Source: Limimonas halophila
GTDB lineage: Bacteria; Pseudomonadota; Alphaproteobacteria; Kiloniellales; Rhodovibrionaceae
Direction of reading: 5' to 3'
Assembly: GCF_900100655.1 (NCBI RefSeq)
Contig: NZ_FNCE01000017.1
Span: 1 to 32,399, forward strand
DNA length: 32,399 bases
Every line of letters starts with the position of its first letter. Position 1 is the first letter of the stretch. Below the pieces are notes generated by a model that saw only the letters and a list, made by a program, of their open reading frames with translations, made no database searches and was not told the origin of the DNA. Positions 3,978 to 19,744 of this stretch are shown here, in pieces. A program made the translations under genes and the position numbers.

Positions 3978-4378
3978 GGCCGTCCCCGAGGCGCGAGGCG
4001 CAGCGTGCTCAGGTGCTGGCGGCTGCCGTCCGGCCCCACGACCACGAGCTGGACGCGCATCAGCCGGGTCAGGCGCGTGCGCGCGGGCGCGCCCGTCCCG
4101 TCATAGGGTGTGACCCGCACGCGCCAGCGGCCGGCCGCGCTCTCGCCACTGTAGGTGCCGGGTTGCAGCGGGATGCCCGCGCCCACATCCGCCATGCGGC
4201 TGCGCGCGGCGGCGAGCAGATGGGCGCGGTCGCCGCTGGCCTCGACACCGCGCACGCCCGTGCCGAAGGCGCGGAAGAGCGCCGTCAGCCCCACCGCCAG
4301 GATGGTCAGCGCGACCAGGACCTCCATGAGCGTGAAGCCGTGCCGGCCCGGACCGTGCCGGTGGTCAGCCGTCCGCAA
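3974..4378 (-). CDS. Type II secretion minor pseudopilin GspI
   Basis: A 134-residue prepilin with the cleavage site RHG | FTLMEVLVALTILAVGLTAL; FTLMEVLVAL is characteristic of GspI. The globular domain contains LLAAARSRMADVG and GRWRVRVTPYDG. The start is a TTG at 4378: the frame has a TGA two codons earlier and no ATG or GTG between there and the cleavage site, so TTG is essentially forced. The gene begins inside the end of gspH (14-bp overlap) and its stop overlaps the gspJ ATG, so translation probably depends on coupling. GspI forms the core of the pseudopilus tip complex. Confidence 0.86.
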   Translation of the reverse strand: MRTADHRHGPGRHGFTLMEVLVALTILAVGLTALFRAFGTGVRGVEASGDRAHLLAAARSRMADVGAGIPLQPGTYSGESAAGRWRVRVTPYDGTGAPARTRLTRLMRVQLVVVGPDGSRQHLSTLRLAPRGRP

Positions 4379-4844
4379 TGCTCACCCGCCCCGTCATCCA
4401 GTCGACGCCGACGGTCAGCGCCTCGCCCCCGCGCGTGAGGGTGATGCGCCCGCCGAGCGCCGTGCCGTCGGGAAAGAAGCGATAGGCCACGCGCCGGCCG
4501 CCCTCCGCCACGGTGCTCACCGCCGTGACCGCGTCGACGGCGATGCCCTCGGGCAGGGCGTGCGGCGGATCGCCCGGCACGGCGTACTGGCGCGCGCGCA
4601 GGTCCAGCGTCAGCGCCGCCGGCCGGCCCGTGCGCACGGCCCGCGCCCGCGTTTCCCGCAGCGCAGCGGCGAGCGTGCGCGCCTCGGCGTCCATCTCCAC
4701 CCCGGGCAGGACGCGCTGAAGCTGCGGCGAGGCGAGCGCCGCGATCAGGCCCATGACGGCCAGCACCACCAGCAGCTCGATGAGCGTGAAGCCGTGCTGC
4801 CCGACCGGGTTCAGGAAGTGGCGCCGTCGTCGCCGCTCGACCAA
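4365..4844 (-). CDS. Type II secretion minor pseudopilin GspH
   Basis: A 159-residue prepilin: GQHG | FTLIELLVVLAVMGLIAALA, then ARTLAAALRETRARAVRTGRPAAL, which is the typical GspH pattern after the N-terminal helix, and a beta-rich end. The leader is about 18 residues with five consecutive Arg. The likely start is a TTG at 4844, 34 bp inside the end of gspG, because no in-frame ATG or GTG precedes the cleavage site. It connects the GspG shaft to the GspI/J tip in known systems. Length is normal for the family. Confidence 0.85.
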   Translation of the reverse strand: MVERRRRRHFLNPVGQHGFTLIELLVVLAVMGLIAALASPQLQRVLPGVEMDAEARTLAAALRETRARAVRTGRPAALTLDLRARQYAVPGDPPHALPEGIAVDAVTAVSTVAEGGRRVAYRFFPDGTALGGRITLTRGGEALTVGVDWMTGRVSIADG

Positions 4845-5269
4845 TTGGTCACGTCCGCATTCTCGCCCTGGCCGCCGGGTTCGCCGTCGGCGCCGTAGGA
4901 GAAGAGGTCGAAGGCGCCGTGCTCGCCGGGGCGGCGGTACTGGTAGCGATTGCCCCAGGGGTCGGTGAGCATCTCGCGCCCCTTCTTGAGGTAGGGGCCG
5001 TTCCAGCCCGACACGCCCGCGGGCTTTTCGATCAGCGCTTCCAGCCCCTGATCGCTCGTCGGATACTGCCCGACTTCCAGTTTGTAGAGGTCCAGCACCT
5101 CGCTCAGGCGCTCGATCTGGATCTCGGCGGTGTCGCGCTTGGCGCTGGAGAGGTACTGGAGCACGCGCGGTGCGGCGAAGGCCGACACCAGCCCCAGGAT
5201 CACCAGCACCACCAGCAGCTCAATGAGCGTGAAGCCGCGCTCGGTGCGTCGTTGCGTCTGCCGTGCCAT
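4811..5269 (-). CDS. Type II secretion major pseudopilin GspG
   Basis: A 152-residue major pseudopilin that builds the periplasmic piston-like filament. A basic leader is cut before the phenylalanine in ERG | FTLIELLVVLVILGLVSAFA. The C-terminal part is highly typical: LEVGQYPTSDQGLEAL, GWNGPYLKK, DPWGNRYQYRRPGEHG and FDLFSYGADGEPGG, the last including the calcium-binding loop. The ATG at 5269 is preceded by GAGG. It is the best-supported gene of the cluster. It sits behind a 146-bp gap containing two strong inverted repeats, the only large gap within the operon. This might raise or process its mRNA separately, as the filament needs many GspG copies. Confidence 0.95.
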   Translation of the reverse strand: MARQTQRRTERGFTLIELLVVLVILGLVSAFAAPRVLQYLSSAKRDTAEIQIERLSEVLDLYKLEVGQYPTSDQGLEALIEKPAGVSGWNGPYLKKGREMLTDPWGNRYQYRRPGEHGAFDLFSYGADGEPGGQGENADVTNWSSGDDGATS

Positions 5270-5368: not shown

Positions 5369-5416
5369 GGGCATGATTCAGCGCCCGGTCCGGTGCGGCC
5401 CGACCGCATCATGCCC
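5369..5416. repeat. Stem-loop at the gspF stop codon
   Basis: GGGCATGAT (5369-5377) pairs perfectly with ATCATGCCC (5408-5416). The arm at 5408-5416 abuts the gspF stop codon (5416-5418). Inside, CGGTC (5386-5390) pairs with GACCG (5402-5406). Together with the neighbouring nested repeat it makes the gspF-gspG gap highly structured, consistent with 3'-end protection of the gspEF part of the message. Confidence 0.5.
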
Positions 5417-6645
5417 TATGCGCCCGGAATCTGATACGAGCTGAGGATCGCGGAGAGGATGGCGCCCATGATGGCGGCCACCACCACGCCCAGCAGCAGC
5501 GTGACCATGGGAACCAGGAGTTGGAGCAGCCGCTGGGTGTCGCGGCGCACCTCCTGGTCGTAGATGCCGGCGACCGTGAGCAGCATGCGGTCCAGGTGGC
5601 CGCTCTGCTCGCCCGCTTCCATCAACTGCGTCGCCAGCGGGGGAAAGGCGTTCGCCGCCGCCAGCGGCTGCGCCAGCCCCTCGCCGCGCCGCAGCTGCTT
5701 GCCCGCCGAGCCGAGCAACTGCGCCAGGCGCGTGTTGCCCACGGTGTCCACCGCCATGTCGATGGCCGTCGCCGCGTCCACGCCGTTGCGCAGCAGCGTG
5801 CCCAGGGCGCGGGCGAAGCGCGCCGCCTCGATCTTGCGGATCAGGGGCGCGATCCCCGGCAGCCGCATGGCCCAGGCGTCGCGGGCCGCGCGCACGCGCG
5901 GGCTGCGCCGGGCCTGGGCGGCCAGGAGCACCGCCGCGAGCACCGCCACGGGCAGCGCCCACCAGTAGGCGCGGAAGGCCTCGGACACCGCCAGCACCGC
6001 GCGCGCCGACCAGGGCAGGGCGTCGCCCGAGTTGGCGAAGAGCGGCTTGAATTCCGGCACCACGGCCGCCAGCAGGATGACGATGGCCGCGCCCGCCGCG
6101 ATCAGCACCAGCATGGGGTAGTTGAGCGCGGAGCGGATCTCCTGGCGCAGGCTTTCGGCCTGTTCCTGTGCGTCGGCGAGGTTGGTCAGCACCTCGTGGA
6201 GTGTGCCCCCGGCCTCGCCCGCGCGCACGAGGCCGACGTAGAAGGCCGGGAAAACGCCCGGCTGGCGCTGCATGGCATCCGCCAGCCCCGCGCCGCCGCG
6301 CACCGCGTCCAGCAGCCCCTGGGCGACGTGGGCCATGCCGCCGGCCTCGCTCTGCCCGGCCACGGTGGCGAGCGCGCGGTCGATGGGGAGGCCCGCGCCC
6401 AGCAGCGTCGCCAACTCGCGCGTGAACAGCGCCAGCCCTTGCTGCGTGATGCGGCCGCGCCGCGCCCGCCGGCCCCGCGTCTTGCCGCCGCCCGCGCGGG
6501 CCGGCCCGGTGCGCTTTTCCGTGTGCACCGGCATGTAGCCCTGATCGCGCAGCGCGCGCACGAGCCCGGCGCGGTCCCCGGCCTCCATCTCGCCGCGGAC
6601 GGTTTCGCCGGCGCTGTTCACGGCGCGGTAGTGGAAACGCGGCAT
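5416..6645 (-). CDS. Type II secretion inner-membrane platform protein GspF
   Basis: A 409-residue polytopic protein of normal GspF length. It begins MPRFHYRAVNSAGETVRGEMEA, the typical GspF opening with the Y-[KR]-A-x-[ND]-x-x-G pattern. Two T2SSF domains follow (about 80-200 and 285-400). Both contain family phrases: LALFTRELATLLGAGLPIDRAL, FARALGTLLRNGVDAATAIDM, and G-E-x-G/S turns (RAGEAGGTL, EAGEQSGHLDRML). Membrane helices are seen at about 180-205, 230-250 and 380-402. GspF couples the GspE ATPase to pseudopilus assembly. It lies 41 bp downstream of gspE. The start ATG at 6645 fits the family N terminus, although its ribosome site is weak. Confidence 0.94.
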   Translation of the reverse strand: MPRFHYRAVNSAGETVRGEMEAGDRAGLVRALRDQGYMPVHTEKRTGPARAGGGKTRGRRARRGRITQQGLALFTRELATLLGAGLPIDRALATVAGQSEAGGMAHVAQGLLDAVRGGAGLADAMQRQPGVFPAFYVGLVRAGEAGGTLHEVLTNLADAQEQAESLRQEIRSALNYPMLVLIAAGAAIVILLAAVVPEFKPLFANSGDALPWSARAVLAVSEAFRAYWWALPVAVLAAVLLAAQARRSPRVRAARDAWAMRLPGIAPLIRKIEAARFARALGTLLRNGVDAATAIDMAVDTVGNTRLAQLLGSAGKQLRRGEGLAQPLAAANAFPPLATQLMEAGEQSGHLDRMLLTVAGIYDQEVRRDTQRLLQLLVPMVTLLLGVVVAAIMGAILSAILSSYQIPGA

Positions 6646-6686: not shown

Positions 6687-8387
6687 TCATGTATCGCGCG
6701 TGGCGCGCAGCACCTCGTCCACCGAGGTCGTGCCCGCCAGCGCCTTCGCCAGGCCATCGTGATACAGCGTGCGCAGCCCCGAGGCCACGGCGTCGCGGTG
6801 CAGCTGGCTGGCGTCGGTGCCGCGCAAAACGGCCCGGCGCAGCGCGTCGTCCAGCGTCAGCGTCTCCAGAATGCTTGCGCGTCCGCGGTAGCCGGTGTCG
6901 TTGCAGCGCTTGCACCCGACCGGTTTGTAGAGGGTGCTGCCGGGCCCGCCGCCCACGCTGGCCAGGTTGAGGCGCTCGGCCAGTTCGGGCTCGACGGCGT
7001 AGGGCTCGGCGCAGTCCGGGCACAGCCGGCGCACCAGGCGCTGCGCCGCGACGCCGTTGACCGTCGCGGTAACGAGGTATTCCTCCACGCCCATGTCGAG
7101 CAGGCGCGTGATCGTGCTGGCGGCGTTGTTGGTGTGCAGCGTGGACAGCACCAGGTGCCCCGTCAGCGCCGCCTGTGCCGCGATCTGCGCGGTTTCCAGG
7201 TCGCGGATCTCGCCGATCAGGATGATGTCCGGGTCCTGGCGCAGGATGGCGCGCAGGCAGGCGGCGAAGTCCAGCCCGATGCTCGGCTTGACCTGGATCT
7301 GATTGATGCCTTCCAGCTGGTACTCGATCGGGTCCTCGACCGTGAGGATTTTGCGGTCGTCGGCGTTGAGCCGCTTCAGCGCGGTGTAGAGCGTCGTCGT
7401 CTTGCCGCTGCCGGTGGGGCCGGTCACCAGCAGGATGCCGTTGGGCCGCGCCAGCAGCTCCTCCAGCGTCTCGCGCGCGGGGCCGGTGACGCCGAGCGCG
7501 TCGAAGTCCAGGCGCACGCTGTCCTGATCCAGGATGCGCATGACCACGCTCTCGCCGTGGAGCGTGGGGATCGTGGAGATGCGCAGGTCCACCTGGCTGC
7601 CGCGGACGGCCATCTTGATGCGGCCGTCCTGGGGCAGGCGGCGTTCGGCGATGTCCAGACGCGCCATGATCTTGATGCGTGAGACCACGGCCGCGTGCAT
7701 CGACAGCGCCGGCGCGTCGGCCTCGCGCAGCACGCCGTCCACGCGGTAGCGCAGGCGCAGGCGGTTCTCGAAGGGCTCCAGGTGGATGTCGGAGGCGCGC
7801 TGCTCGATCGCCTGCTGGATCAGGCGGTTGACCAGCCGGATGACGGGCGCCTCGCTGGCCATGTCGCGCAGGCGGGCGACATCGTCCTCGACGCTGCTTT
7901 CCAGGGTGTCCGCGACGGCGTCGGCGGCGGGCTCGCTGGCGGCGTAGAGACGCTCGATCGCCTGTTCCAGCTCCGCCGGCACCGCCACGCACGGCGTGAC
8001 GGGGGACTCGGCCAGCAGCGCCATCGCCTCTCGTGCGAATCCGGCGCCCGGATCGGCCATCGCGAGGTGCAGCGTGCCCTCGCCCTCGGCCACCGGCAGC
8101 ACGCGCGCCTCGCGCAGGAAGCGCGGGCTCAGCTTGTCGGCGTAGAGCGGCGCGGCGGGAAAGTCGTCCGGTCCCAGAAGCGGGCAGTCGTGCACTTCCG
8201 CGAGCGTGCGCGCGAGGTCGCGCTCCCCGAGCAGCCCCAGCTTGAGCAGCACCTCGGGCAGGCCCTCGCCGCTGCTGCCCGCCACGCGGCGCGCGCGGTC
8301 CAGGGCGGACTCCTCGATGCGGCCTGCGGCGAGCAGGCGCCCGGCGAGCTGGTCGTCGCGGTCGGTCAGGGTCGCGCTCTCGGGCAT
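6687..8387 (-). CDS. Type II secretion traffic ATPase GspE
   Basis: A 566-residue cytoplasmic hexameric ATPase that powers pseudopilus assembly. Domains: N1E/GspE_N (about 10-150), PAS-like N2E (about 170-290), then the RecA-like motor. Visible motifs are Walker A GPTGSGKTT (323-331), an Asp box near RKILTVEDPIEY (345-356), Walker B IILIGEIRD (388-396) and a His box GHLVLSTLHTN (410-420). The zinc-binding four-cysteine arm is intact (C456, C459, C492, C495). Length is at the upper end for the family because of the extended N terminus. It is first in the operon gspEFGHIJLM-C/N. A secretin gene (gspD), often adjacent, is absent here. Confidence 0.95.
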   Translation of the reverse strand: MPESATLTDRDDQLAGRLLAAGRIEESALDRARRVAGSSGEGLPEVLLKLGLLGERDLARTLAEVHDCPLLGPDDFPAAPLYADKLSPRFLREARVLPVAEGEGTLHLAMADPGAGFAREAMALLAESPVTPCVAVPAELEQAIERLYAASEPAADAVADTLESSVEDDVARLRDMASEAPVIRLVNRLIQQAIEQRASDIHLEPFENRLRLRYRVDGVLREADAPALSMHAAVVSRIKIMARLDIAERRLPQDGRIKMAVRGSQVDLRISTIPTLHGESVVMRILDQDSVRLDFDALGVTGPARETLEELLARPNGILLVTGPTGSGKTTTLYTALKRLNADDRKILTVEDPIEYQLEGINQIQVKPSIGLDFAACLRAILRQDPDIILIGEIRDLETAQIAAQAALTGHLVLSTLHTNNAASTITRLLDMGVEEYLVTATVNGVAAQRLVRRLCPDCAEPYAVEPELAERLNLASVGGGPGSTLYKPVGCKRCNDTGYRGRASILETLTLDDALRRAVLRGTDASQLHRDAVASGLRTLYHDGLAKALAGTTSVDEVLRATRDT

Positions 8388-8773: not shown

Positions 8774-10636
8774 ATGTTCAAGAGGCGAGACGCCCTCAAA
8801 TTCGGCCTGGCTGCTGCCGGCACCGGGCTGGCGTCGCCGCATGCGTTCGCCGCTGCCAACCACGCACGGCGGCCCTTCAATCAGGAAGGGCTGGTGTTTC
8901 CGGACACGCGAACGCCTTCCGTCGTTGCGCGGCCGAGCCCGGAGGCTCGCAGCTTCGTGACGCCGCTGTTCGTGCTTCCCGACGCCCGCGAGGCGGCGGA
9001 AGTGCGGCAGACCGACCTGGATCCGCCGCCGGATCCGGATCGCCACCAGCGCTACCACGACTTCGTGCCGCAGCGGTACTTCCGCGAGACGTTCCGCGAG
9101 AAGCGCTGGCAGTACCACATCGACCCGCCGTACAATCAGGGCTCGATCCACATCGGCTGGGACGCCGGTCACGACATCCCGATCCGGCCGGGCGACGATC
9201 GCTCGTCCAACCCCGTCGAGCCGGGCTTCTTCGTGCCGGGTCAAGTCTACCGGGTGTTCTACGACGAGCCGATCTTCGTGCGCCGCGTGAACGACATGCC
9301 GCCGATCGGCGAGCATCGCGTGGTGTTCACGAACCCCTCGTTCACGGTTCACCTGCACAACGCGCACACGGCGTCGGAGTCCGACGGCATCCCGACGGAC
9401 TACTTCAACCCCGGTGAGTTCTGGGACTACCACTACGGCAACTTCCCGGCCGGCTTCGACGAGCGCGAGAAGCTGACGTCGCTGTGGTACCACGACCACC
9501 GTCTGGACTTTACGGCGACCAACGTCTACGGCGGCATCTCGGCGCCGTACCTGCTGTTCGACGAGTTCGACTCGAACGACGAGCGCGATCCCAATCCGAA
9601 CGCCTCGCGCCTGCCGAGCGGGCCGGAGTTCGACATCCCGCTGATCGTGCACGACGTGCAGTTCGACGAGAACGGCCAGGTCGTGTGGGACTTCGGCACG
9701 CCCTCGACCCAGCAGTTCGACGATCTGGGTGAGGAGCTGTTCCCCAGCTTCCAGCACACCACCTTCGGTATGCTGGGCGACCAGCTCACGGTGAACCGCA
9801 AGATCCGGCCGTTCCACGACGTCAAGCAGCGCAAGTACCGCCTGCGCATCTACAACGGCGGTCCCAGCCGGCTGTACCGCTTCAGCTTCCAGGTCCGGGA
9901 CGCCAACGGCAACTTCAAGCGCGGCCCGGTTCCGGTCATCCAGCTGACCGAGGACGGCAACTTCTTCGACGAGCCCAAGACCGTCGAGGAGGTCGAGCTG
10001 TGGGTCGCCAACCGCGCCGATGTCGTCATCGACTTCTCCGAATTCGAGGCCGGCGATCAGGTGATCCTCACCAACCATCTGGAGATGCGCTCCACGGGCG
10101 AGGGTCCGAGCGGCCGGCGTCTGGAGCTGGGTGACCCGCTGTCCGAGGTCATGATGTTCCAGGTGGGCGAGGAGCAGCCCGAGGATCCGAGCCGTGTGCC
10201 GCAGAAGCTGCGCAAGCAGCCGACGATCGACTTCCGCGAGGTGCGCCGCGAGCGGCTGTTCACCTTCGATTACGACAACGGCCTGTTCACGGTCGACGGC
10301 CGCCTGATGGATCCCAACCGCGTGGACGCGGCGATCGAGCAGGGCTCGGCCGAGATCTGGACGTTCCGCAACGAAGGCCTGTCGTGGGGTCACCCGATCC
10401 ACACGCACTTCGAGGAATTCCAGATCTTCGAGGTCAACGGCCAGCCGATCACGCCGACGAACGTGCGTGACGCCAAGAAGGACGTCGTCCGCCTCGGCCC
10501 GGGCGACGAGATCAAGTTCTTCGGTCGCTGGCGCGACTTCTTCGGCCGGCACGTCATGCACTGCCACAACGTCGTCCACGAAGACCACGCCATGATGATC
10601 CGGTGGGACATCGTGCCGCCGGGGCAGGGCGATTGA
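8774..10636 (+). CDS. Tat-exported multicopper oxidase (CotA/bilirubin-oxidase-like)
   Basis: A 620-residue copper oxidase. The start ATG at 8774 follows AAGGAGG by 4 nt. The N terminus (KRRDALKFGLAAAG, cut probably after AFA near residue 26) looks like a twin-arginine signal, as expected for enzymes exported folded. All four copper motifs are present: HLHNAH (193-198), WYHDH (238-242), HPIHTH (540-545) and HCHNVVHEDHAMM (596-608). The last contains the type 1 Cys597, His602 and axial Met607, in CotA-like spacing. The enzyme should oxidise a substrate and reduce O2 to water in the periplasm. The HTASESDG and NPGEFWDYHY stretches resemble the phenoxazinone synthase/CotA/bilirubin oxidase group. 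The physiological substrate (metal ion, phenolic or protein partner) cannot be told. It is followed by genes for Sco-like proteins and a cytochrome, unlike typical stand-alone copper-resistance oxidases. Confidence 0.93.
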   Translation: MFKRRDALKFGLAAAGTGLASPHAFAAANHARRPFNQEGLVFPDTRTPSVVARPSPEARSFVTPLFVLPDAREAAEVRQTDLDPPPDPDRHQRYHDFVPQRYFRETFREKRWQYHIDPPYNQGSIHIGWDAGHDIPIRPGDDRSSNPVEPGFFVPGQVYRVFYDEPIFVRRVNDMPPIGEHRVVFTNPSFTVHLHNAHTASESDGIPTDYFNPGEFWDYHYGNFPAGFDEREKLTSLWYHDHRLDFTATNVYGGISAPYLLFDEFDSNDERDPNPNASRLPSGPEFDIPLIVHDVQFDENGQVVWDFGTPSTQQFDDLGEELFPSFQHTTFGMLGDQLTVNRKIRPFHDVKQRKYRLRIYNGGPSRLYRFSFQVRDANGNFKRGPVPVIQLTEDGNFFDEPKTVEEVELWVANRADVVIDFSEFEAGDQVILTNHLEMRSTGEGPSGRRLELGDPLSEVMMFQVGEEQPEDPSRVPQKLRKQPTIDFREVRRERLFTFDYDNGLFTVDGRLMDPNRVDAAIEQGSAEIWTFRNEGLSWGHPIHTHFEEFQIFEVNGQPITPTNVRDAKKDVVRLGPGDEIKFFGRWRDFFGRHVMHCHNVVHEDHAMMIRWDIVPPGQGD

Positions 10637-10687
10637 TCGCTCGCCGGCACAGCGTGGCGCTGAACGGATGACAGAAAGGATCCATCC

Positions 10688-11323
10688 ATGACGACCGATC
10701 GACGCAACATTCTCTCGCAGGTCAATGGATTCTGCAGCGGTGCCCCGGCGGACTCGCGCATTCGCGACGTGGACCTCGACGGCACCGGTGAGTTCAAGGA
10801 TCTGCAGACGGGGGAGAAGACGAACGATCCCCTGAAGTTCGATGATCCGCAGGTGCAGAAGAAGCTCGTTCTCGTGAACTTCTTCTCCTCGCGGCACGAA
10901 GAGCAGTACCGGATCATGAAGAACCTCGCCGAGGTCGCCAAGCGCCTCGACAAGAAGGTGGGCAGCGAGGTCTTCATCAACTCTGTGTCTCTCGATCCCG
11001 AGTACGACACCTTCGAGCGGCTCCATCAGCTCGCCGAGGAGCTGGAGGCGCCTGACGGTTGGTGCTTCGTCCGGGCCACGCAGAACGCCAACAACGAGTT
11101 GATGCGCCGAATGAACCGCCTTCGCGGTTACATGAGCCGTCACCTGGTGTTCTACGGCAAGCCCGGCGCCTTCTGGGGCACCTTCCCGGGCCACAACTCG
11201 CCGGACGAGCTGGCCGACCGCCTCAGCCGCAGCATCCCGGGCCCGCGCCCGGCGCAGTGGCGGCGTGCCGGCCCGGCCAAGCGCGGTCAGGAGCCGTATC
11301 CCTGGAGCGCTCGCGCCGTCTGA
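10688..11323 (+). CDS. Sco-like thioredoxin-fold protein lacking the CxxxC copper site
   Basis: A 211-residue protein with an overall Sco1/SenC plan: LVLVNFFSSRHEEQYRIMKNL (starting about residue 60), a central strand VFINSVSLDPEYDTFERLHQLAEEL, and a late HLVFYGKPGAFWGTFPGH strand. At the place where Sco proteins have CxxxCP it reads SSRHEEQ (67-73), so the metal and redox cysteines are missing. Two other cysteines (C16, and one in GWCFVRAT) are elsewhere. No Sec or Tat hydrophobic core is seen after MTTDRRNILSQ, so it may be cytoplasmic or exported bound to the Tat-carried oxidase. The ATG at 10688 has AAAGGA upstream. It lies 51 bp after the oxidase gene in the same direction. Assignment rests on fold-like patterns and is moderate. 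Confidence 0.62.
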   Translation: MTTDRRNILSQVNGFCSGAPADSRIRDVDLDGTGEFKDLQTGEKTNDPLKFDDPQVQKKLVLVNFFSSRHEEQYRIMKNLAEVAKRLDKKVGSEVFINSVSLDPEYDTFERLHQLAEELEAPDGWCFVRATQNANNELMRRMNRLRGYMSRHLVFYGKPGAFWGTFPGHNSPDELADRLSRSIPGPRPAQWRRAGPAKRGQEPYPWSARAV

Positions 11324-11392
11324 GCGGACCGCGGTCTCGCGCATTCAGCGCGCGATCGAGCCGACCGAGGGACGCAGAAACGGAGTTACATG

Positions 11393-13369
11393 ATGGTTAG
11401 CCGAAAGACGCAGTACGCCGTCGCGGCCGTCGTGCCCTCGCTGTTGTTCGCGACAGCGGCGGGGGCCCAGGATCAGGACTTCCCGGTCTTCTCAAACGGG
11501 GAGGCCTCCAACCACCCGGCACCGAACCCGGTTACCGTTCCGACGGGGGGCCTGTCGTTCGAGGACGACGGCTTCACCTGGGTGTACGAAGGGCCACAGC
11601 CGGTGTTCGAGGAGTCCGAGCCGTTCAAGGATGCGGGCGACGCCACGAACATCCTGCCCACCGTCTACGAGCGGATGATCGATCAGGGCGGCGACCGAGT
11701 CCCGAACAGCCTGCCGTCGACGCCCGAGGACCCCTACAACCTGCACCCGGACCCGGTGGTTTCGGACATCGACTCCCGCTCGCCGCGGTGGGATCTGGCC
11801 AACATCATCAACGTGCTGCACGCGGTGGTGTTCCCCGAGGACCGTGCGGCCACCAACCAGGAGGTCTTCCCGGGCGGTGAAGGCGTTCCGGCCGATCCGC
11901 GCCGCGGCCGTGTCGAGCGCAAGGAGAACGCCGGCACGATTCCGGGCGAAGTTCCCGGCGAGATCCCGATGGACCAGGTCGAGTTCGCCATCGACATCCT
12001 CGAGGGCAACGAGTTCGAGAACCGCGACCGCGCCTACGAGGGTGAGTTCGCGCTGCTCAACTACAACGGCGTGAACATGGTCAAGACCGTCACCCAGAAC
12101 GATGAGGGCGAGTGGACGGTCGAGGTCGACCAGTTCTGGATGCGCCAGCGCATCAAGGGCGACACGATGTTCTTCGATCTGTCGAACGTGCCGCCGAACG
12201 AGACCTGGGAGATCCACTACAACATCCACGCGATGCACTGGGGTCACGAGGACTTCGCCCCCTTCCAGGTCTTCTTCCAGGATCCGGATGATCGCGGCGA
12301 GGATCAGCCCCAGATCGTCCCCTTCTTCCAGATGGACCAGACCTTCTTCCCGATGGAAGAGGGCAAGAAGTACCAGTTCGAGATGTCCATGCCCCCGGCG
12401 GACATGTACAACCTGACCTACCACTGGGGCTGGCGCGTCCATCCGCCGCGCATCCAGGCGATCGAGAACGCCGGCAAGACCGTGCTGGGTCAGAACATCG
12501 TCCAGTGGGAGCGTGACGTCTTCGGCGAGAATCCGCGCGCCAGCCAGCAGGCCAAGTTGGAGGCCATCGAGCAGATCGGCGACCTCTCCCCCGCCAAGCG
12601 CATGTGGGAAGGCTTCCGCCAGCTGCGCCAGCTCGGCACGGACGCCAGCCGTCAGGAGCAGCAGGAGATCGTCGCCGAGATCGAGGCCGCGTTCGACGAC
12701 TGGAACGACCGCACGAGCCTGCCCCGCGGCGTCGAGAAGGCCCAGGCCGATGAAGGCGAGCAGGCCTACGATCAGACGCTGTTCTACGTGAACAACACGA
12801 TCTACGGCCGCGTCCACGGCGTGAAGCGGATGGCCGAGCAGACCTGGTTCGAGTTCCAGAGCCGGGGCGAAACCCTGAAGACCCGGCTGATCAACGGCGA
12901 CTACTTCCCGCACGCCTATCAGAACGTGGACTTCGGCGGTAACCGCGGTTGGGAGAACATCTACCAGAACACCATCCCGATCGGCGGTCAGGGCCCGTGG
13001 TTCACCTTCGGCCGCACGCAGTGGCAGCCGAACACCGTCCGTCCGGCCATCGTGCCCGCGGCCGAGCGGCCCGAGGACCAGCAGGTCGCCCGGCTGCTGG
13101 AAGGCAACGGCGAGGGCACGCCGCGCAAGATCGAGCCGCGTGAGACGGCCGCGACACCGCGGAACAACCCGAACGCCACGAACCACGACGAAGGCGCTTC
13201 GTGGCTGCGCATGCCTCCGACGCCGGACGGCAGCAGCGTGGTCCGTGACGAGCGTGGCCTGGGCCTCCGCGATGTGAAGGTGAACTTCAATCACGATCCT
13301 TCCACGCGGCTGCGCTACTACCAGTTCGATCCGATGCACCACAACGTCGCGATCTTCTCGGTCCACTAA
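11393..13369 (+). CDS. Large secreted His/Trp-rich protein of unknown family
   Basis: A protein of 658 residues (659 if the ATG at 11390 is used; GGAG at 11382-11385 is better spaced for 11393). A Sec signal peptide (VSRKTQYAVAAVVPSLLFATAAGA) is cut before QDQDFPVF. I do not recognise the family. It contains no cysteine. A central block holds clustered potential metal ligands: IHYNIHAMHWGHEDF (about 275-289) and LTYHWGWRVHPPR (about 342-354). A beta-sandwich-like segment (WTVEVDQFWMRQRIKGDT, FFDLSNVPPNETWEIHYN) recalls a cupredoxin edge but lacks the Cys ligand. A helical, acidic region (about 365-450) and the tail YYQFDPMHHNVAIFSVH follow. Acidic residues are abundant. Its place inside the oxidase operon suggests a periplasmic partner or substrate-binding subunit of the oxidase; this is inference. 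Confidence 0.85.
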   Translation: MVSRKTQYAVAAVVPSLLFATAAGAQDQDFPVFSNGEASNHPAPNPVTVPTGGLSFEDDGFTWVYEGPQPVFEESEPFKDAGDATNILPTVYERMIDQGGDRVPNSLPSTPEDPYNLHPDPVVSDIDSRSPRWDLANIINVLHAVVFPEDRAATNQEVFPGGEGVPADPRRGRVERKENAGTIPGEVPGEIPMDQVEFAIDILEGNEFENRDRAYEGEFALLNYNGVNMVKTVTQNDEGEWTVEVDQFWMRQRIKGDTMFFDLSNVPPNETWEIHYNIHAMHWGHEDFAPFQVFFQDPDDRGEDQPQIVPFFQMDQTFFPMEEGKKYQFEMSMPPADMYNLTYHWGWRVHPPRIQAIENAGKTVLGQNIVQWERDVFGENPRASQQAKLEAIEQIGDLSPAKRMWEGFRQLRQLGTDASRQEQQEIVAEIEAAFDDWNDRTSLPRGVEKAQADEGEQAYDQTLFYVNNTIYGRVHGVKRMAEQTWFEFQSRGETLKTRLINGDYFPHAYQNVDFGGNRGWENIYQNTIPIGGQGPWFTFGRTQWQPNTVRPAIVPAAERPEDQQVARLLEGNGEGTPRKIEPRETAATPRNNPNATNHDEGASWLRMPPTPDGSSVVRDERGLGLRDVKVNFNHDPSTRLRYYQFDPMHHNVAIFSVH

Positions 13370-13379
13370 CGGCCGGAAC

Positions 13380-13414
13380 GGGGACAGGCTCCGCGTGGGC
13401 CTGTCCCCACTTTT
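13380..13414 (+). terminator. Intrinsic terminator inside the oxidase gene cluster
   Basis: GGGGACAGGC (13380-13389) pairs perfectly with GCCTGTCCCC (13399-13408) around a 9-nt loop and is followed by ACTTTT. It lies 11 bp after the stop of the secreted His-rich protein and before the Sco gene. It probably splits the cluster into a highly expressed three-gene unit and a downstream sco-cytochrome unit, or attenuates read-through. Confidence 0.75.
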
Positions 13415-13475
13415 CGTTCATCAGGACTCGCTTGGGGCATCACGACACCAAAATCCCGCACCAGGAGGTACGACC

Positions 13476-14108
13476 ATGCGCCAGCTGACACGCCTCTCCG
13501 GTTTGCTCGTTGCGGGATTTCTCGTCGCGGGTCTGAGCGCAGCCCCCGGGCCAGGCCACGCCAAGACGGATGGCGCGGCAGCCGAGGGCTACGCGCGGAT
13601 CGAGGCGAGCTACACCACGCCGGATGTGACGCTTCGCACGCACGAGGGCGGTCAGGTGCAATTGCGGAAGCTCCTGGCCGGCGACCGGCCCGTCGCGCTG
13701 CAGTTCATCTTTACCTCGTGCCAGACGGTTTGCCCGATGATCACGGCGATGATGGCCCAGGCGCAGGACGACCTGCGCGAGGTGGCGCCGGATCTCCGGA
13801 TCGTCTCGATTTCCATGGATCCGGGCTACGACACACCAGCGCGTCTGGCCCGGTACGCCGAGAAGTTCGATGCCGAAGGCGACTGGACGTTCCTGACCGG
13901 CCAGCTCGACGCCGTGCGCACTGCCATGGGCGCGTTCAACGCCAAGTACGGGGGTAAAAACAAGATGTACCACGAGCCGTACACATACCTCCGGGCGGCG
14001 GACAGTGACACCTGGGTGCGGCTGAACGGCCTGATGAGCGCGGGGCAGTTGAAAACTGAATTCCGCAAGGCGCTCGAAACGACCGCGGCCGCCGTCGAGG
14101 GCCGCTGA
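13476..14108 (+). CDS. Sco1/SenC/PrrC-family copper chaperone
   Basis: A 210-residue exported thioredoxin-fold protein. The start ATG at 13476 follows AGGAGG by 7 nt, so the longer upstream reading is dropped. A Sec signal or membrane anchor (about 7-29) is followed by PDVTLRTHEGGQVQLRKL, LQFIFTSCQTVCPMI with the copper-binding pair C82/C86, IVSISMDPGYDTPARLARYAEKF, and MYHEPYTYLR with the likely third ligand H166. Sco proteins deliver or redox-condition copper sites, classically CuA of cytochrome oxidase. No CuA oxidase gene is in the window, so here the client may be the multicopper oxidase of the same cluster. It has its own spacing after a terminator and lies 50 bp before the cytochrome gene. 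Confidence 0.93.
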   Translation: MRQLTRLSGLLVAGFLVAGLSAAPGPGHAKTDGAAAEGYARIEASYTTPDVTLRTHEGGQVQLRKLLAGDRPVALQFIFTSCQTVCPMITAMMAQAQDDLREVAPDLRIVSISMDPGYDTPARLARYAEKFDAEGDWTFLTGQLDAVRTAMGAFNAKYGGKNKMYHEPYTYLRAADSDTWVRLNGLMSAGQLKTEFRKALETTAAAVEGR

Positions 14109-14158
14109 GGCTCGCGCCTGCGGACTCACGCACGATCCGGAAAAGGGGAGCGAACAGG

Positions 14159-15865
14159 GTGCGGCAAACGATGCGCAGCGCCGCTGCGGGAATCGCGGTG
14201 GCCATGCTTGCCGGCGGCGCCTTCGGCGCCGCAGCGGGTGAGCTGCCGGACGGCGAGGCCACAGAAGGCAAGCGTTTTTACTGGAACGGGGTGACGTCGG
14301 ACGGCGAACCCGTCCCCGCCATCGTCCAGGGCGACATCGAAAGCACCAGCGACAACTTCACCTGTGTCGGCTGCCACCGGCCGAGCGGGTTCGGCAGCAG
14401 CGAGGGCAGCACCTTCGTGCCGCCGATCACGGGTGAGGTGCTGTTCTCCGAGCGGCTGCTCAACCGTGAGCGCCGCAACCGCCGCTTCCGCGAGCTGTTC
14501 AAGCAGGAACATTCGAGCGGGTTCGACGCGCGCGTGCGCATGCCCAACATGCGCCCCGCCTACACCGAGGAAACCCTGGCGCGCGCGATCCGCGAGGGCA
14601 CGGATTCCGCCGGCCGCACGCTGTCGGAAGCCATGCCGCGCTACAAGATGAGCGACCAGGCGGTCGCCAACCTCATCGCATACCTCAAGGACCTGTCCGC
14701 GGAAAAGGACCCGGGCGTCGGCGAGAAGACGATGCACCTGGCCACGGTGGTCGGGCCCAACGTCGACGAGAGCAAGGCGCAGGCGATGCTGCGCACGATG
14801 CGGGCGTTCATCGAATGGTACAACAAGGACATCCAGACCCAGATGAACAAGCCCAACTTCTCGCCGTACTACCGCTCGGAATTCGCCGACGCCTACCGCC
14901 TGTGGGACCTCCATGTCTGGCGTCTTGAGGGCGCCCCCTCCACCTGGCGCAAGCAGCTGGAAAAGCGCTACGAGAGGCGGCCGGTCTTTGCCGTGGTCAG
15001 CGGGCTCGTCGACGGCCCCTGGGCACCGGTCGACGGCTTCTGCGACAGCAACGGGATTCCTTGCGTCTTTCCCAACACCGTGTTGCCGGACACGGACGAC
15101 GCGACCTATGGCTACAGTGTTTATTTCTCACCCGGCCTGGAGCTTGAAGGCGAAGCGCTGGCCGCGCACCTGAGCAATCAGGACCCGCAGCCGAAGCGTG
15201 TGCACCAGATTCATGCGGCCGACCCGGCGGGCACGGTGCCGGCGGACGCCTTCGCCGACAGGGCGGAACGGGCGCTGCCGGCGACGCGGATGACCTCAGC
15301 GGAAGTGGCCTCGCGCGACGCGCTCACGGCCGAAATCGCTGAGGCCGCGGACCGGGAGACGGACGTGCTGGCGATCTGGCCCGGGGATCACGTCGAGGCC
15401 GCGGTGGCGGCACTGAACGCGAACCCGCCCGCAGCCGAGCGCGTGGTTCTGCCCTCCACGGCGCTGGCAGCAGCGAAGGAAAAGCTGTCCGAGAAGTTGC
15501 GCCCCAAGGTTCGCCTCACCCATCCCTACGAGAAGCCGACCGGCTACCATCCGCGGTCCTTCCGCGTGCGCGCCTGGATGAACAGCCGCGGCATCGGTGT
15601 GTCGCACGAGCGCGTGCAGATGCAGACCTACTACGCGCTCACGCAGATGCAGTTCAGCGTCAATCACCTGGTGACGGACTTCTACCGGGACTACCTGCTG
15701 GAATACATTGAGCAGGAGGCCGAGGCCGAGCTGAACCCCGGTACGCATCCGGAACTGTCGCTGGGGCCGGGCGTGCGCTTCGCCTCCAACGGCGCCTACA
15801 TCGTCAAGCTCGATCCCGACGCCAAGGATGGCTACAAGGCCGTGTCCGAGTGGATCGTGCCCTGA
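14159..15865 (+). CDS. Cytochrome c fused to a periplasmic-binding-protein-like domain
   Basis: A 568-residue secreted fusion protein. The start is GTG at 14159, 8 nt after AAGGGGAG; an in-frame ATG four codons later is an alternative. Signal peptide about 1-26. The cytochrome domain (about 35-182) has one haem site CVGCH (69-73), candidate Met ligands in RVRMPNM (126-131) and EAMPRYKM (158-164), and a final AVANLIAYLKDL helix. From about 190 onward, ATVVGPNVDESKAQAMLRTM, VFAVVSGLVDGPWAPV, PCVFPNTVLPDTDD and later WPGDHVEAAVAALNANPP resemble a branched-chain-amino-acid-type binding protein (Peripla_BP_6-like). No ABC permease genes are near. I infer an electron carrier whose second domain senses or docks a ligand or partner, perhaps passing electrons to or from the copper oxidase. 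Confidence 0.85.
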   Translation: MRQTMRSAAAGIAVAMLAGGAFGAAAGELPDGEATEGKRFYWNGVTSDGEPVPAIVQGDIESTSDNFTCVGCHRPSGFGSSEGSTFVPPITGEVLFSERLLNRERRNRRFRELFKQEHSSGFDARVRMPNMRPAYTEETLARAIREGTDSAGRTLSEAMPRYKMSDQAVANLIAYLKDLSAEKDPGVGEKTMHLATVVGPNVDESKAQAMLRTMRAFIEWYNKDIQTQMNKPNFSPYYRSEFADAYRLWDLHVWRLEGAPSTWRKQLEKRYERRPVFAVVSGLVDGPWAPVDGFCDSNGIPCVFPNTVLPDTDDATYGYSVYFSPGLELEGEALAAHLSNQDPQPKRVHQIHAADPAGTVPADAFADRAERALPATRMTSAEVASRDALTAEIAEAADRETDVLAIWPGDHVEAAVAALNANPPAAERVVLPSTALAAAKEKLSEKLRPKVRLTHPYEKPTGYHPRSFRVRAWMNSRGIGVSHERVQMQTYYALTQMQFSVNHLVTDFYRDYLLEYIEQEAEAELNPGTHPELSLGPGVRFASNGAYIVKLDPDAKDGYKAVSEWIVP

Positions 15866-15893: not shown

Positions 15894-16844
15894 TCACCCG
15901 GCCAGGACGTCCTGGTGGATGATGACGTCGGCGTCGGGGAAGGCGGTCTGGAGCTGGTGGTGGATCTCGTCCGCCACCGCCTTGGCCTCGGCGAGGGGCA
16001 TGCGGCGGTCCAGCTCCAGGTGAAGCTGGATGAAGCGTTGCGGGCCGGAGGCGCGGGTGCGCAGGTCGTGCATGCCGCCCACCGACGGGTGGGCGAGCAC
16101 GATGCGTGAAATTTCCTGGCGTTCGGCCTTCGGAAGCTCGCGGTCCATCAGCATGTCGAGCGCGTGGCGCCCGATGCCGGCGGCCGAAACCAGCAGGTAG
16201 ACCGCGATTCCCACCGCCAGGGCCGGGTCGACCCAGGCCCAGCCGGTCTGTTGCCACACGACGAAGCCGGCGATGACGGCCAGGTTCGCCAGGACGTCGC
16301 CCAGGTAGTGCACGCTGTCGCCCTGGATCGCCAGCGAGCCCGTGCGCCGCACCACGCGGCGTTGATAGGCCACGAGCGCCAGGGTCGCGAGGATCGACGC
16401 CGCCATCACGGCCATGCCGATGGCCGGGGCCTGCACGGGCCGCGGCTCGATGAAGCGCTGCGCCGCGGCGATCACGAGGAACACGGCCGAGCCGGCGACG
16501 AAGGCGGCCTGCCCGAGCGAGGCGATGGGCTCCATCTTGCCGTGGCCGAAGCGGTGCTCGCGGTCGGCCGGCTGGAGCGCGTGGCGCACCGCCAGCAGCG
16601 TGATCAGCGAGGCCGCCGCGTCCAGCAGCGAGTCCACGAGCGTCGAGAGCAGGCTGACGGAGTCCGTCGCCAGCCACGCCCCCGTCTTGGCGACGATCAG
16701 GGTGCCCGCCGTGGAAACCGAGGCGATCGTGGCGCGGTGCATGGCCCGCGCGGTCGAGGCCCCGGCGACGGGCGGGCGATGGTCGGGGTCGGGCGGCTCC
16801 ACGGCCGCACGGTGAGCGGGGTCGTGATCGTCGGGCTGGGCCAA
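15894..16844 (-). CDS. Cation diffusion facilitator metal efflux pump, FieF/YiiP type
   Basis: A 316-residue inner-membrane transporter exporting divalent metals (Fe, Zn, Mn or similar) in exchange for protons. The N-terminal 35 residues are a His/Asp-rich extension. Six membrane helices span about 38-215. The metal site of FieF is kept: D71 and D75 in LVDSLLDAAASL, H179 and D183 in VHYLGDVLANL. QPADREHRFGHGKMEPIASL is the signature loop of the FieF branch. The C-terminal cytoplasmic domain (about 220-316) has the expected H-rich ends (QLHLELDR, IIHQDVLAG). It converges with the oxidase cluster. The ATG at 16844 was taken, but the protein could start later, near the first helix. Confidence 0.9.
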   Translation of the reverse strand: MAQPDDHDPAHRAAVEPPDPDHRPPVAGASTARAMHRATIASVSTAGTLIVAKTGAWLATDSVSLLSTLVDSLLDAAASLITLLAVRHALQPADREHRFGHGKMEPIASLGQAAFVAGSAVFLVIAAAQRFIEPRPVQAPAIGMAVMAASILATLALVAYQRRVVRRTGSLAIQGDSVHYLGDVLANLAVIAGFVVWQQTGWAWVDPALAVGIAVYLLVSAAGIGRHALDMLMDRELPKAERQEISRIVLAHPSVGGMHDLRTRASGPQRFIQLHLELDRRMPLAEAKAVADEIHHQLQTAFPDADVIIHQDVLAG

Positions 16845-16993: not shown

Positions 16994-18031
16994 TCAGTGG
17001 TAGCCCTCGCCCGGTCGGACCTTGCCGCGGAACACCCAGTAGCAATAGGCGGTGTAGGCCAGGATGACCGGAAGCAGAATCACCACGCCCACCAGCATGA
17101 AGATCAGCGAGGACTGCGCCGAGGCGCCTTCCCACACGCTGATCGCGTGGGGCACGACATACGGGTACAGGCTGATCCCCAGGCCCAGGTAGCTGAGCAG
17201 AAACGTCACGATGGCCAGCACGAAGGGCTGGATCTCGCGCCGCTTCTGCAGCGAGCGCCAGAGTTGAAGGATCGCCACGGCCGTGATGATGGGCACCGGC
17301 GACAGCAGCAGGATGTTGGGCCAGGAGAACCACGTGTCGCGGATCATCGGGTGCAGGAAGGGGGTCCAGATGCTCACCACGATGAGCGCGAGCACGACGC
17401 CGCCGAGCAGGTATTCGGCGCGCTCGTAGGCCCAGTCCTGCAGCTCGCCCTCGGTCTTCATGATCAGCCAGCCGGCGCCCAGCAGCCCGTAGCCGAGCAT
17501 CAGCGCCAGGCCGCAGATGATCGAAAACGGCGTCAGCCAGTCGAACGCGCCGCCGGTGTAGACCGCCGTGGTCACATCGCCGACGGCCTGCGAGGTGATC
17601 TCCACCTGGAAGCCCTGGATGAAGGCGCCCAGCGTGATCCCCTGCATCAGCGTGGCGACCGCCGAGCCCCCGGCGAACGCCAGGTTCCACCAGTGCTTGT
17701 TCTGGTCCGCGGCCTTGGCGCGGAACTCGAACGCCACGCCCCGGAAGATCAGCCCCATCAGCATCAGGATGATGGGCAGGTAGAGCGCCGGCAGGATGGT
17801 CGAATAGGCCACCGGGAAGGCGGCGAGCAGGCCGCCGCCCCCCAGCACCAGCCAGGTCTCGTTGCCGTCCCACACGGGTGCGACGCTGTTCATCATCACG
17901 TCGCGCTCGCGCTCGCCGCGGGCGAAGGGGAACAGCAGGCCGATCCCCAGGTCGAAGCCATCCATGATGACGTACATCAACACGCCGACGGCGATCACGA
18001 CGGACCAGATCGCGGGCAGCCAGAATTCCAT
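16994..18031 (-). CDS. Cytochrome bd-type quinol oxidase subunit II (CydB/CioB)
   Basis: A 345-residue integral membrane protein with about eight or nine helices. The opening MEFWLPAIWSVVIAVGVLMY, the MDGFDLGIGLLFPFA segment and APVWDGNETWLVLGGGGLLAAFP are hallmark CydB regions. The ending YCYWVFRGKVRPGEGYH is also typical. Together with subunit I it oxidises ubiquinol and reduces O2 with high affinity without pumping protons. Only 13 bp separate it from the cydA stop codon, so the two form one operon, closed by the terminator at 16931-16959. No cydX-like small ORF or cydCD genes are seen in the window. Confidence 0.96.
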   Translation of the reverse strand: MEFWLPAIWSVVIAVGVLMYVIMDGFDLGIGLLFPFARGERERDVMMNSVAPVWDGNETWLVLGGGGLLAAFPVAYSTILPALYLPIILMLMGLIFRGVAFEFRAKAADQNKHWWNLAFAGGSAVATLMQGITLGAFIQGFQVEITSQAVGDVTTAVYTGGAFDWLTPFSIICGLALMLGYGLLGAGWLIMKTEGELQDWAYERAEYLLGGVVLALIVVSIWTPFLHPMIRDTWFSWPNILLLSPVPIITAVAILQLWRSLQKRREIQPFVLAIVTFLLSYLGLGISLYPYVVPHAISVWEGASAQSSLIFMLVGVVILLPVILAYTAYCYWVFRGKVRPGEGYH

Positions 18032-18044
18032 GGCGCGCTTCTCC

Positions 18045-19427
18045 TTATTCCGCCGGGGCGGTGCTGTCGCTCACGGCCGAGAGCGGCCGCTTCGGGTGCC
18101 CGCCGGGCTCGGGGCGCTGATCCGCTTCGGGGCCCTTCATCGCCAGCCGGATCATGTAGAACATCCCGGCACCGAAGATGATGGTGTAGACGATCCCGAA
18201 GAGAATCAGGGTCGTCAGCACGCCGCCGCCGCTGAGCGACTGGGTCACGCCCTCGCTCGTGCGCATGATGCCGTGAACGATGTAGGGCTGGCGGCCGACC
18301 TCGGTGACGATCCAGCCCGTCAGCACGGCGATGAAGCCGAGCGGGATCGCCGATGCCTGGGCCCGCAGGAACCGGCGGCTCTGGAACAGCTTGCCGCGCC
18401 ACAGCAGGAAGGCGCCGATCAGGCCCAGCGCGATCATGACCAGCCCGATGGCCACCATGATGCGGAAGGAATAGAACACCCAGCCCACGCTCGGCTGATC
18501 CTCGGGCGCCCACTCCTTCAGCCCCGTGACCTCGCCGGTCCAGGAGTGCTTCAGGATCATGCTGCCGAGATAGGGAATGCCGATCTCGAAGTGGTTGGTC
18601 TGCGCTTCCTGGTCGGGCACGGCGAACAGGATCAGCGGCGCGCCCGCCTTGGACTCCCAGTGGCCCTCCATGGCCGCGACCTTGCGCGGCTGATGCTCCT
18701 GGGTGTTGAGGCCGTGCAGGTCGCCGACGATCAGCTGCGCGGGCGCCATCACCGCCAGCAGGCCCACCGCCATGGCGCTCATGATGCGGCCGTGCTGCAC
18801 GCTCTTGCGCTTGAGCAGGTACCACGCGCCGACGCCGCCGATCACCAGCGCGGTGGACAGGAAGGCCGCGAACAGCATGTGCACGAAGCGGTAGGGGAAG
18901 GACGGGTTGAAGATGATCGCCAACCAGTCCTCGGGGTAGAAGACGCCGTTGCGCAGCTCGAACCCGGCCGGCGTCTGCATCCACGAGTTGGCGGACAGGA
19001 TCCAGAACGCGGACACCGACGTGCCGATGGCCACCAGCACCGTGGCGGTGAAGTGCATCCACCGCGGCACGCGGTTCCAGCCGAACAGCATGATGCCCAG
19101 GAAGGCCGCTTCCAAGAAGAAGGCCGTCAGCACCTCATAGGCCAGCAGCGGACCCATCACGGGCGAGGCGGCGTTGGAGAAGACGGCCCAGTTGGTGCCG
19201 AAGGAATAGGACATCACGATGCCCGACACCACGCCCATGCCGAAGGACACGGCGAAGATCTTGCTCCAGAAGCGGGCAAGCTCGTAGTAAACATCCCGGC
19301 CCGTCTTGAGCCACAACCCTTCCACGACCGCCAGCCAGGCCGACAGCCCGATGGTGAAGGCGGGGAAGAGGATGTGGAACGCGACGGTGAAGCCGAACTG
19401 GATGCGCGAGAGGATCAGCGGATCCAT
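18045..19427 (-). CDS. Cytochrome bd-type quinol oxidase subunit I (CydA/CioA)
   Basis: A 460-residue haem-bearing subunit. The ATG at 19427 is preceded by GGAG 7 nt away and gives the canonical MDPLILSRIQFGFTVAFHIL start; a 40-residue upstream extension in frame is rejected. Haem ligands are visible: H18 (haem d/b595), H183 in RFVHMLFAAF and M324 in FRIM. Glutamates E99 and E106 of the proton path are present. The Q-loop (GLNTQEHQPRKVAAMEGHWE onward) is short and GRQPYIVHGIMRTSEGVT is present, as in the cyanide-insensitive (CIO) branch. The last 25 residues are polar. Expression is probably induced at low oxygen, given the FNR/FixK-like box upstream. Confidence 0.96.
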   Translation of the reverse strand: MDPLILSRIQFGFTVAFHILFPAFTIGLSAWLAVVEGLWLKTGRDVYYELARFWSKIFAVSFGMGVVSGIVMSYSFGTNWAVFSNAASPVMGPLLAYEVLTAFFLEAAFLGIMLFGWNRVPRWMHFTATVLVAIGTSVSAFWILSANSWMQTPAGFELRNGVFYPEDWLAIIFNPSFPYRFVHMLFAAFLSTALVIGGVGAWYLLKRKSVQHGRIMSAMAVGLLAVMAPAQLIVGDLHGLNTQEHQPRKVAAMEGHWESKAGAPLILFAVPDQEAQTNHFEIGIPYLGSMILKHSWTGEVTGLKEWAPEDQPSVGWVFYSFRIMVAIGLVMIALGLIGAFLLWRGKLFQSRRFLRAQASAIPLGFIAVLTGWIVTEVGRQPYIVHGIMRTSEGVTQSLSGGGVLTTLILFGIVYTIIFGAGMFYMIRLAMKGPEADQRPEPGGHPKRPLSAVSDSTAPAE

Positions 19428-19744
19428 GATTGGTCTCCATCTCGACCCGGTTGGCTGTGGCCCCGCTGTTCCCACGAGGCTGTGCAAGACATAACCGCCG
19501 CCCGATGCCCCATCCAGGGCCATCGCCGCCGGCCGGGCGCGGCGCATGATCGCAGTCCAATCTTGCCCGACGCCGACGGCGCAGGCCAGTTAACTGTTCG
19601 TAGCGTGATATGCTTTGACCTGGATCAGAGCCGTTGGGCCGGCACGCTGGCAGGACATTCGCGGTATCCGCTCGCGGGGGTTTGCCCGACCCGGGTCGCC
19701 ACGGCACGCTTTGCACGAAGGCCTTTCCGTCGCGGGAGGCGAGG
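19428..19744. promoter_or_regulatory. Divergent intergenic region between cydA and the DUF72 gene
   Basis: This 317-bp gene-free stretch separates cydA (minus) from the DUF72 gene (plus). The notable signals are the FNR/FixK-like box at 19615-19628 and a palindromic AGTTAACT at 19588-19595, about 31 bp from the box centre on the cydA side, where a minus 10 element would be expected for a class II FNR promoter. I see no other clear motif. Confidence 0.45.
19615..19628. promoter_or_regulatory. FNR/FixK-type binding site
   Basis: TTGACCTGGATCAG fits the FNR/FixK dyad TTGAT-N4-ATCAA at 8 of 10 conserved positions and resembles alphaproteobacterial TTGATCTGGATCAA boxes. It is 188 bp upstream of cydA, whose product is typically induced by low oxygen. 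No FNR or FixK gene is in the window. Confidence 0.6.

Follow-up and report, generated by a model that had tools for sequence, protein, structure and literature searches.

The 32,399-nucleotide stretch of Limimonas halophila DNA analysed here (hereafter the window; contig NZ_FNCE01000017.1, C17 of a 3.04 Mb genome) carries five plus-strand genes that we assign with high confidence to the iox family, the gene cluster of iodide-oxidising bacteria. In order, they encode a multicopper oxidase (ioxA-like), a Sco-fold protein (ioxB-like, gene 2), a secreted protein (ioxC-like, gene 3), a canonical Sco protein (ioxD-like, gene 4) and a cytochrome c fused to a periplasmic-binding-protein domain (ioxE-like, gene 5). 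All five are open reading frames lying where a first-pass annotation of the sequence had placed them, and its domain calls stand with small corrections. It had also known of no described system made up of just these genes; one exists, in the iox cluster of Iodidimonas and Roseovarius. The system is already known, and what the present comparison adds is conserved, unexplained details of its parts. Judged from sequence, the five genes probably specify a secreted IoxA–IoxC oxidase that would make iodine from iodide and O2, the likeliest of the readings considered below. Microbial iodide oxidation matters for iodine cycling and for the mobility of radioactive iodine-129. The window adds an iox cluster on a separate IoxA branch, with parts that are now testable: an IoxB without the CxxxC motif, the ligand of IoxE, and export of the enzyme by an adjoining type II secretion system.

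Gene content and order match the iox cluster of Roseovarius sp. A-2

A review of Iodidimonas (PMC9415286) reports six genes, ioxA–F. There, IoxA is a 62 kDa multicopper oxidase and IoxB, IoxD and IoxF are Sco-like, while the functions of the 71 kDa IoxC and of IoxE are called unclear. The same review names two bacterial iodide-oxidising enzymes that have been studied, from Iodidimonas Q-1 and Roseovarius A-2, with IoxA and IoxC both present in the purified Q-1 enzyme and in the A-2 enzyme. Two further papers state that Q-1 (Iodidimonas nitroreducens) has the entire cluster in its genome (PMC10556733) and that some Nitrosomonas have ioxA and ioxC homologues (a 2025 paper, PMC12335899).

In Roseovarius sp. 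A-2 (NZ_BDIY01000001.1, locus L046) all five genes recur in identical order and on one strand, with type II secretion genes alongside, and the proteins of the window are 53, 35, 40, 45 and 52 % identical to their A-2 counterparts from A to E. Gene 3 aligns with its counterpart over residues 70–659. Sco-family genes occupy positions B and D in the window, gene 2 scoring below the Pfam cut-off, and at both loci IoxB lacks CxxxC and IoxD is canonical. Gene 5 occupies the next position, and the A-2 gene there is equated with the published ioxE by gene order only. The window IoxB differs from that of A-2 in having no hydrophobic leader core. With the Iodidimonas ioxABCDEF clusters (Q-1 and others), compared by description since no Iodidimonas record was among the search matches, the window shares the multicopper oxidase IoxA, the 71 kDa-type IoxC, Sco-type IoxB and IoxD and flanking gsp genes, but it lacks ioxF (PMC9415286). 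The genome of the window holds one other Sco at Pfam level, on contig C13. Because ioxF was not found at the A-2 locus either, it was not treated as defining.

The five-gene order recurs at other loci

A search with the single gene 3 sequence recovered only the window's own genome among 58 relatives (1/58) and among 385 genomes of the class (1/385), and nothing in viral contigs, genome contigs, PDB sequences or plasmids. IoxA, searched at E <= 1e-60 against 398 genomes of the phylum, gave three matches including its own; of the other two genomes, G766 has all five genes and G523 the first three, and among 60 genomes of the family of G766 only G766 itself was found. An alignment of the three gene 3 proteins then led to 40 loci, Roseovarius sp. 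A-2 among them. The order A-B-C-D-E is uninterrupted and on one strand in 24, and one more (L012) holds all five types rearranged. Seven show A-B-C, with D and E both missing from the 3.6 kb or more that was read past these genes, and one (L036) has A-C without B. The remaining seven are short or cut and were counted as neither form: L035 (A and B absent from 3.8 kb upstream of C), L042 (A-B-C visible, the locus ending 198 bases after C), L040, L043, L045 and L047 (D and E both missing from the 2.4 to 8 kb available after C) and L048. IoxA is cut in L015 and L026, and IoxE lies in two frames in L020 and L032. The profiles were built from members of these same loci and match them by construction, so that gene order is the informative part. 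As the order recurs at 24 of 40 loci, the arrangement is more than chance, and the co-location on which the first-pass annotation had staked its proposal holds elsewhere: this is a conserved cluster for a secreted copper oxidase, complete with Sco proteins of its own. The family is also rare, the IoxC profile matching 3 of 398 genomes in the phylum sample; in the overlapping class sample (G000 is in both) it matched 2 of 385, one of them over 57 positions at E 3.7e-4, which we regard as chance.

The sister cluster is that of Ferruginivarius sediminum (L012, 8–9791). It has the nearest IoxA, an IoxC 51 % identical to that of the window, an IoxB that also lacks the leader core, and adjoining cydBA genes. 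It differs in its order, C-D-E-A-B-C, with two IoxC copies of which the first is cut by the locus end, and in that no gsp genes were found within its flanks. The three-gene clusters (Methylovulum, Thiogranum, HGW-Gammaproteobacteria-3, G523 and others) share IoxA, a CxxxC-less IoxB and IoxC in order, but have no IoxD or IoxE and mostly belong to a separate IoxA group.

Three plasmid loci (Skermanella, Comamonadaceae) were considered as shorter iox versions and rejected: the third gene of the S. mucosa set has no BLASTP similarity to IoxC, and the IoxC profile matches nothing in the three. The Skermanella pairs (L004, L006) resemble the window in an oxidase 37 % identical to IoxA with a Sco gene adjoining; unlike it, no IoxC was found and the Sco protein keeps CxxxC. 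Their neighbour encodes an Ig-like or hypothetical protein, and they are perhaps a sister system. In the BD1-7 clade bacterium SB11_3 (L023, L024) iox genes appear on two contigs with identical coordinates and scores, either a duplication or an assembly copy; both, being of one assembly, are counted among the 24. Outside Pseudomonadota, IoxC homologues occur in Acidobacteriota (L028, L032, L034, L035, L048) and in a cut locus titled Planctomycetota (L043), most with other iox genes. Among methanotrophs, Methylobacter has the five-gene form (L017) and Methylovulum the three-gene form (L039).

IoxA retains all copper ligands

IoxA matches Pfam Cu-oxidase_2 with 52 bits, and its nearest PDB sequences are bilirubin oxidase and CotA. 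Its start, MFKRRDALK, was read by eye as a twin-arginine leader. Every one of the 38 oxidases compared, that of the window included, has the full set of twelve copper ligands. A tree was made from the window and 37 further sequences, three of these being the plasmid oxidases; it omits L015, whose oxidase is cut, L024, which duplicates L023, L010, which shares a contig with L049, and loci without an oxidase. The window pairs with F. sediminum at 100/100 (67 % identity over 588 columns), within a 19-row clade (96/93) that takes in all ten Roseovarius sequences. Most oxidases from clusters without D and E form a separate group of eight (100/100). The acidobacterial locus L028 is an exception among these D- and E-less clusters, its oxidase sitting with those of five-gene clusters of Acidobacteriota and others.

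One of the two Sco proteins has lost the copper-binding motif

In copper-binding Sco proteins the site consists of CxxxC plus a histidine. IoxD fits this, with 78.9 bits to SCO1-SenC and the motifs SCQTVC and YHEP, and CxxxC is kept in 24 of 24 IoxD sequences examined. IoxB scores 19.4 bits against the same family, below the cut-off of 22.8, and CxxxC is absent from 37 of 37 IoxB sequences, those of the window and A-2 included (L023, L024 and L033 are counted here, L023 and L024 being copies). The first-pass annotation had called gene 2 cysteine-less; it contains two cysteines, and what it lacks is the Sco motif. In the Sco proteins beside the three plasmid oxidases without IoxC, CxxxC is kept in all three. 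Since the motif is present in IoxD and the plasmid Sco proteins and in no IoxB, its loss from IoxB accompanies IoxC clusters rather than being peculiar to the genome of the window. In the Acidobacteriota loci L028, L032 and L034, IoxB has a cysteine (NCMS) close to the motif site, still without CxxxC.

Among the N-terminal 70 residues of IoxB, 33 of 34 sequences have an RR pair, the exception, L040, being cut. No hydrophobic stretch follows it in the window, L012 or L028: the best 13-residue hydropathy after RR is 0.66 in the window and 0.68 in L012 (Ferruginivarius), and reaches at least 1.5 in 30 of 34.

IoxC is a conserved cysteine-free protein

IoxC comes nowhere near any Pfam cut-off; 29 members compared with Pfam gave no convincing family (best E 0.0074, one member), and the IoxC profile gave nothing convincing among PDB sequences (best E 1.1). 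Its description as His/Trp-rich was overstated, with 16 His and 16 Trp among 659 residues. The window protein contains no cysteine over that length, and the majority consensus of 29 sequences is likewise cysteine-free, leaving no cysteine ligand for a type 1 copper site. His351, His650, His651 and His659 are kept in 29 of 29 sequences and His508 in 28. The predicted model (predicted local distance difference test score 74; predicted template-modelling score 0.80) weakly resembles cupredoxins: Foldseek paired it with Fet3p at E 1.5e-5 but with a template-modelling score of only 0.12, and in VIA the best Z was 5.0 over 117 residues at a root-mean-square deviation (rmsd) of 3.1, a range that the tool calls common. 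An origin of IoxC as a duplicated multicopper oxidase was rejected, the comparison of IoxC and IoxA profiles giving a probability of 2.3.

IoxE is a fusion protein that occurs together with IoxD

The fusion proposed for gene 5 was upheld for the cytochrome by Pfam (Cytochrom_C, 23.3 bits, cut-off 21.3) and for the binding-protein half by structure and homology, the window protein having no Pfam match there. A single CxxCH (residues 69–73 in the window protein) and an invariant Met159 are found across 19 sequences, and Peripla_BP_6 matches 6 of 19 homologues. In structural comparisons the C-terminal part of the predicted model matched type I periplasmic binding proteins, the highest Z being 28.4 over 343 residues (rmsd 3.8); its structural neighbours include several aromatic-acid binding proteins, among many amino-acid binders and receptors.

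D and E co-occur at 25 of 40 loci and neither was found singly, and because they always come together we propose that they work as one module. The first-pass annotation had envisaged an electron route to the oxidase via cytochrome c. Such a route is not obligatory: at seven of the 40 loci, and in G523 (locus L011), A-B-C is retained while D and E are missing from at least 3.6 kb past it, so that the A-B-C core can do without them and a cytochrome-fed oxidase is not needed. The excerpts of the iox literature consulted here contain no statement that IoxB lacks CxxxC, that half of IoxE is a binding-protein domain or that D and E are paired; the primary papers may have these.

A model for the iox enzyme and its alternatives

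We infer a model of what the substrate is, how the enzyme is exported and secreted, and what IoxB, IoxD and IoxE do. In it, IoxA would fold in the cytoplasm, leave by twin-arginine translocation (Tat) and be loaded with copper in the periplasm, assisted by IoxD. IoxB, with its Sco fold and no copper-binding CxxxC, would act as an assembly escort and not as a copper donor, while IoxD and IoxE would form one accessory maturation or redox module. IoxA would then join IoxC, and the pair would be exported by the adjoining type II secretion system. Outside the cell, electrons from iodide would enter the type 1 copper of IoxA and pass to O2 at the trinuclear site, giving I2 or hypoiodous acid (HOI) and water. 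Much more tentatively, and with doubt about the whole combination, the iox enzyme may differ from other secreted laccases in three respects: a copper-dead, cysteine-free, cupredoxin-like IoxC; a copper-free, Tat-borne, Sco-fold escort in IoxB; and a D-E module whose binding-protein/cytochrome fusion regulates copper loading or electron flow by sensing or tethering a ligand, the complex being exported by type II secretion.

Several observations weigh against the iodide model. Identity to A-2 is only moderate (35–53 %), and the A-2 proteins were equated with the published IoxA and IoxC via genome name, gene family and order. No ioxF is present in the window, where a FieF gene on the opposite strand comes next. 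The leader of IoxA scores 10.8 bits against Pfam TAT_signal, below the cut-off of 22.7, and its branch in the tree is long (0.54). Acidobacteriota and methanotrophs, for which iodide would not be an obvious substrate, have members of the family as well. For the secretion step, gspG was found beside none of the 30 loci outside Roseovarius (flanks of at most 8 kb, often less), GspG is encoded away from iox in G766, G523 and the Methylobacter genome, and many relatives that have no IoxC do have type II secretion (of 58, own genome included, 26 have GspG and one has IoxC).

The homologues in Acidobacteriota and methanotrophs also speak for the strongest alternative, in which the window encodes a true iox-family oxidase whose main substrate is a phenolic or other organic compound, bound also by the binding domain of IoxE. 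The type I binding-protein domain of IoxE, some of whose structural neighbours bind aromatic acids, would suit it, and according to PMC9415286 the purified Q-1 enzyme also oxidises 2,2'-azino-bis(3-ethylbenzothiazoline-6-sulfonic acid) (ABTS), syringaldazine, 2,6-dimethoxyphenol and hydroquinone. Against this, the characterised relative with the same five-gene set, A-2, oxidises iodide (PMC9415286), and the window shares a tree clade with the Roseovarius enzymes. We consider an organic main substrate unlikely, if a serious contender, and on these sequence comparisons favour iodide as the probable physiological substrate.

A multicopper oxidase for copper resistance (CueO/CopA-like) or metal oxidation, standing alone among unrelated neighbours, would fit the FieF pump nearby and the weak scores of the oxidase with CueO and PhsA models, but is improbable: the CueO-type NCBIfam equivalog gives 100.2 bits against a cut-off of 525, the gene order with IoxC, conserved at 24 of 40 loci, already disfavours it, and FieF was not found in the flanks of any of the 40 loci. 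Least probable of all is a decayed, non-functional cluster, which the lost leader core of IoxB and the missing ioxF might suggest; the five frames are open, all oxidase ligands are kept, the sister cluster of Ferruginivarius shares the IoxB feature, and ioxF was not found at the A-2 locus either.

Returning to the secretion step of the iodide model, gsp genes flank the Iodidimonas iox genes, and their role in export of the enzyme is called unclear in PMC9415286. GspG is encoded beside iox at 10 of 10 Roseovarius loci, and the iox-adjoining copy is the only GspG found in the genomes of the window, A-2, R. gaetbuli and R. mucosus. With GspG not found beside 30 of 40 loci, distant in three genomes and common without IoxC, the link is not general, and a type II system travelling with iox is not supported (the IoxC count among the 58 relatives being from a single-sequence search). 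In the lineages of the window and of Roseovarius the link is suggestive, though unproved.

Genes surrounding the cluster

Table 1. Features of the window. Identities are to the Roseovarius sp. A-2 homologue.
Feature	Position	Strand	Remarks
gspL-like	2223..3314	-	PilN 37.5 bits; PilM_2 below cut-off
gspJ-like	3342..3977	-	N_methyl; T2SSJ 25.9 bits, below cut-off of 28
gspI-like minor pseudopilin	3974..4378	-	N_methyl only; name from position
gspH	4365..4844	-	
gspG	4811..5269	-	sole T2SSG match in genome
gspF	5416..6645	-	
gspE, type II secretion ATPase	6687..8387	-	divergent from ioxA
ioxA-like multicopper oxidase	8774..10636	+	twin-arginine-type leader, four Cu motifs; 53 %
ioxB-like Sco-fold protein (gene 2)	10688..11323	+	CxxxC-less; N-terminal RR present, hydrophobic leader core absent; 35 %
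ioxC-like secreted protein (gene 3)	11390..13369	+	40 %
ioxD-like canonical Sco protein (gene 4)	13476..14108	+	CxxxC + His; 45 %; counted from first ATG, longer GTG frame begins 13395
ioxE-like one-haem cytochrome c/periplasmic-binding-protein type I fusion (gene 5)	14159..15865	+	GTG start; 52 %
FieF-type cation efflux pump	15894..16844	-	neighbour, not shown to be part of cluster
cydB (16994-18031) and cydA (18045-19547), cytochrome bd oxidase	16994..19547	-	neighbour, not shown to be part of cluster

The gsp genes of the window, which the first-pass proposal did not include, lie upstream of and divergent from ioxA and run from gspE to the gspL-like gene (Table 1); gspK was not recognised between the gspJ-like and gspL-like genes. 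The set ends on the minus strand at 241–2263, where gspM- and gspN-like genes would be expected, with two overlapping frames (241–1098 and 818–2263) that match no Pfam family at E <= 0.001. At A-2 the arrangement differs: by Pfam, a GspC-like gene (below cut-off) lies upstream, and genes for a prepilin peptidase, GspG, a pseudopilin, GspK and GspM lie downstream. The genes checked at the R. gaetbuli locus were GspC-like, J, K and L.

The first-pass annotation had taken FieF and cydAB to be consistent with metal or redox stress. Both do adjoin it, FieF being recognised by Cation_efflux, but they are no general part of the system: neither was found within the flanks of A-2, and within the flanks available cydBA was found beside only one of the 40 loci. 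That one is the Ferruginivarius cluster (L012), whose downstream cydBA products share 69 and 77 % identity with their counterparts in the window.

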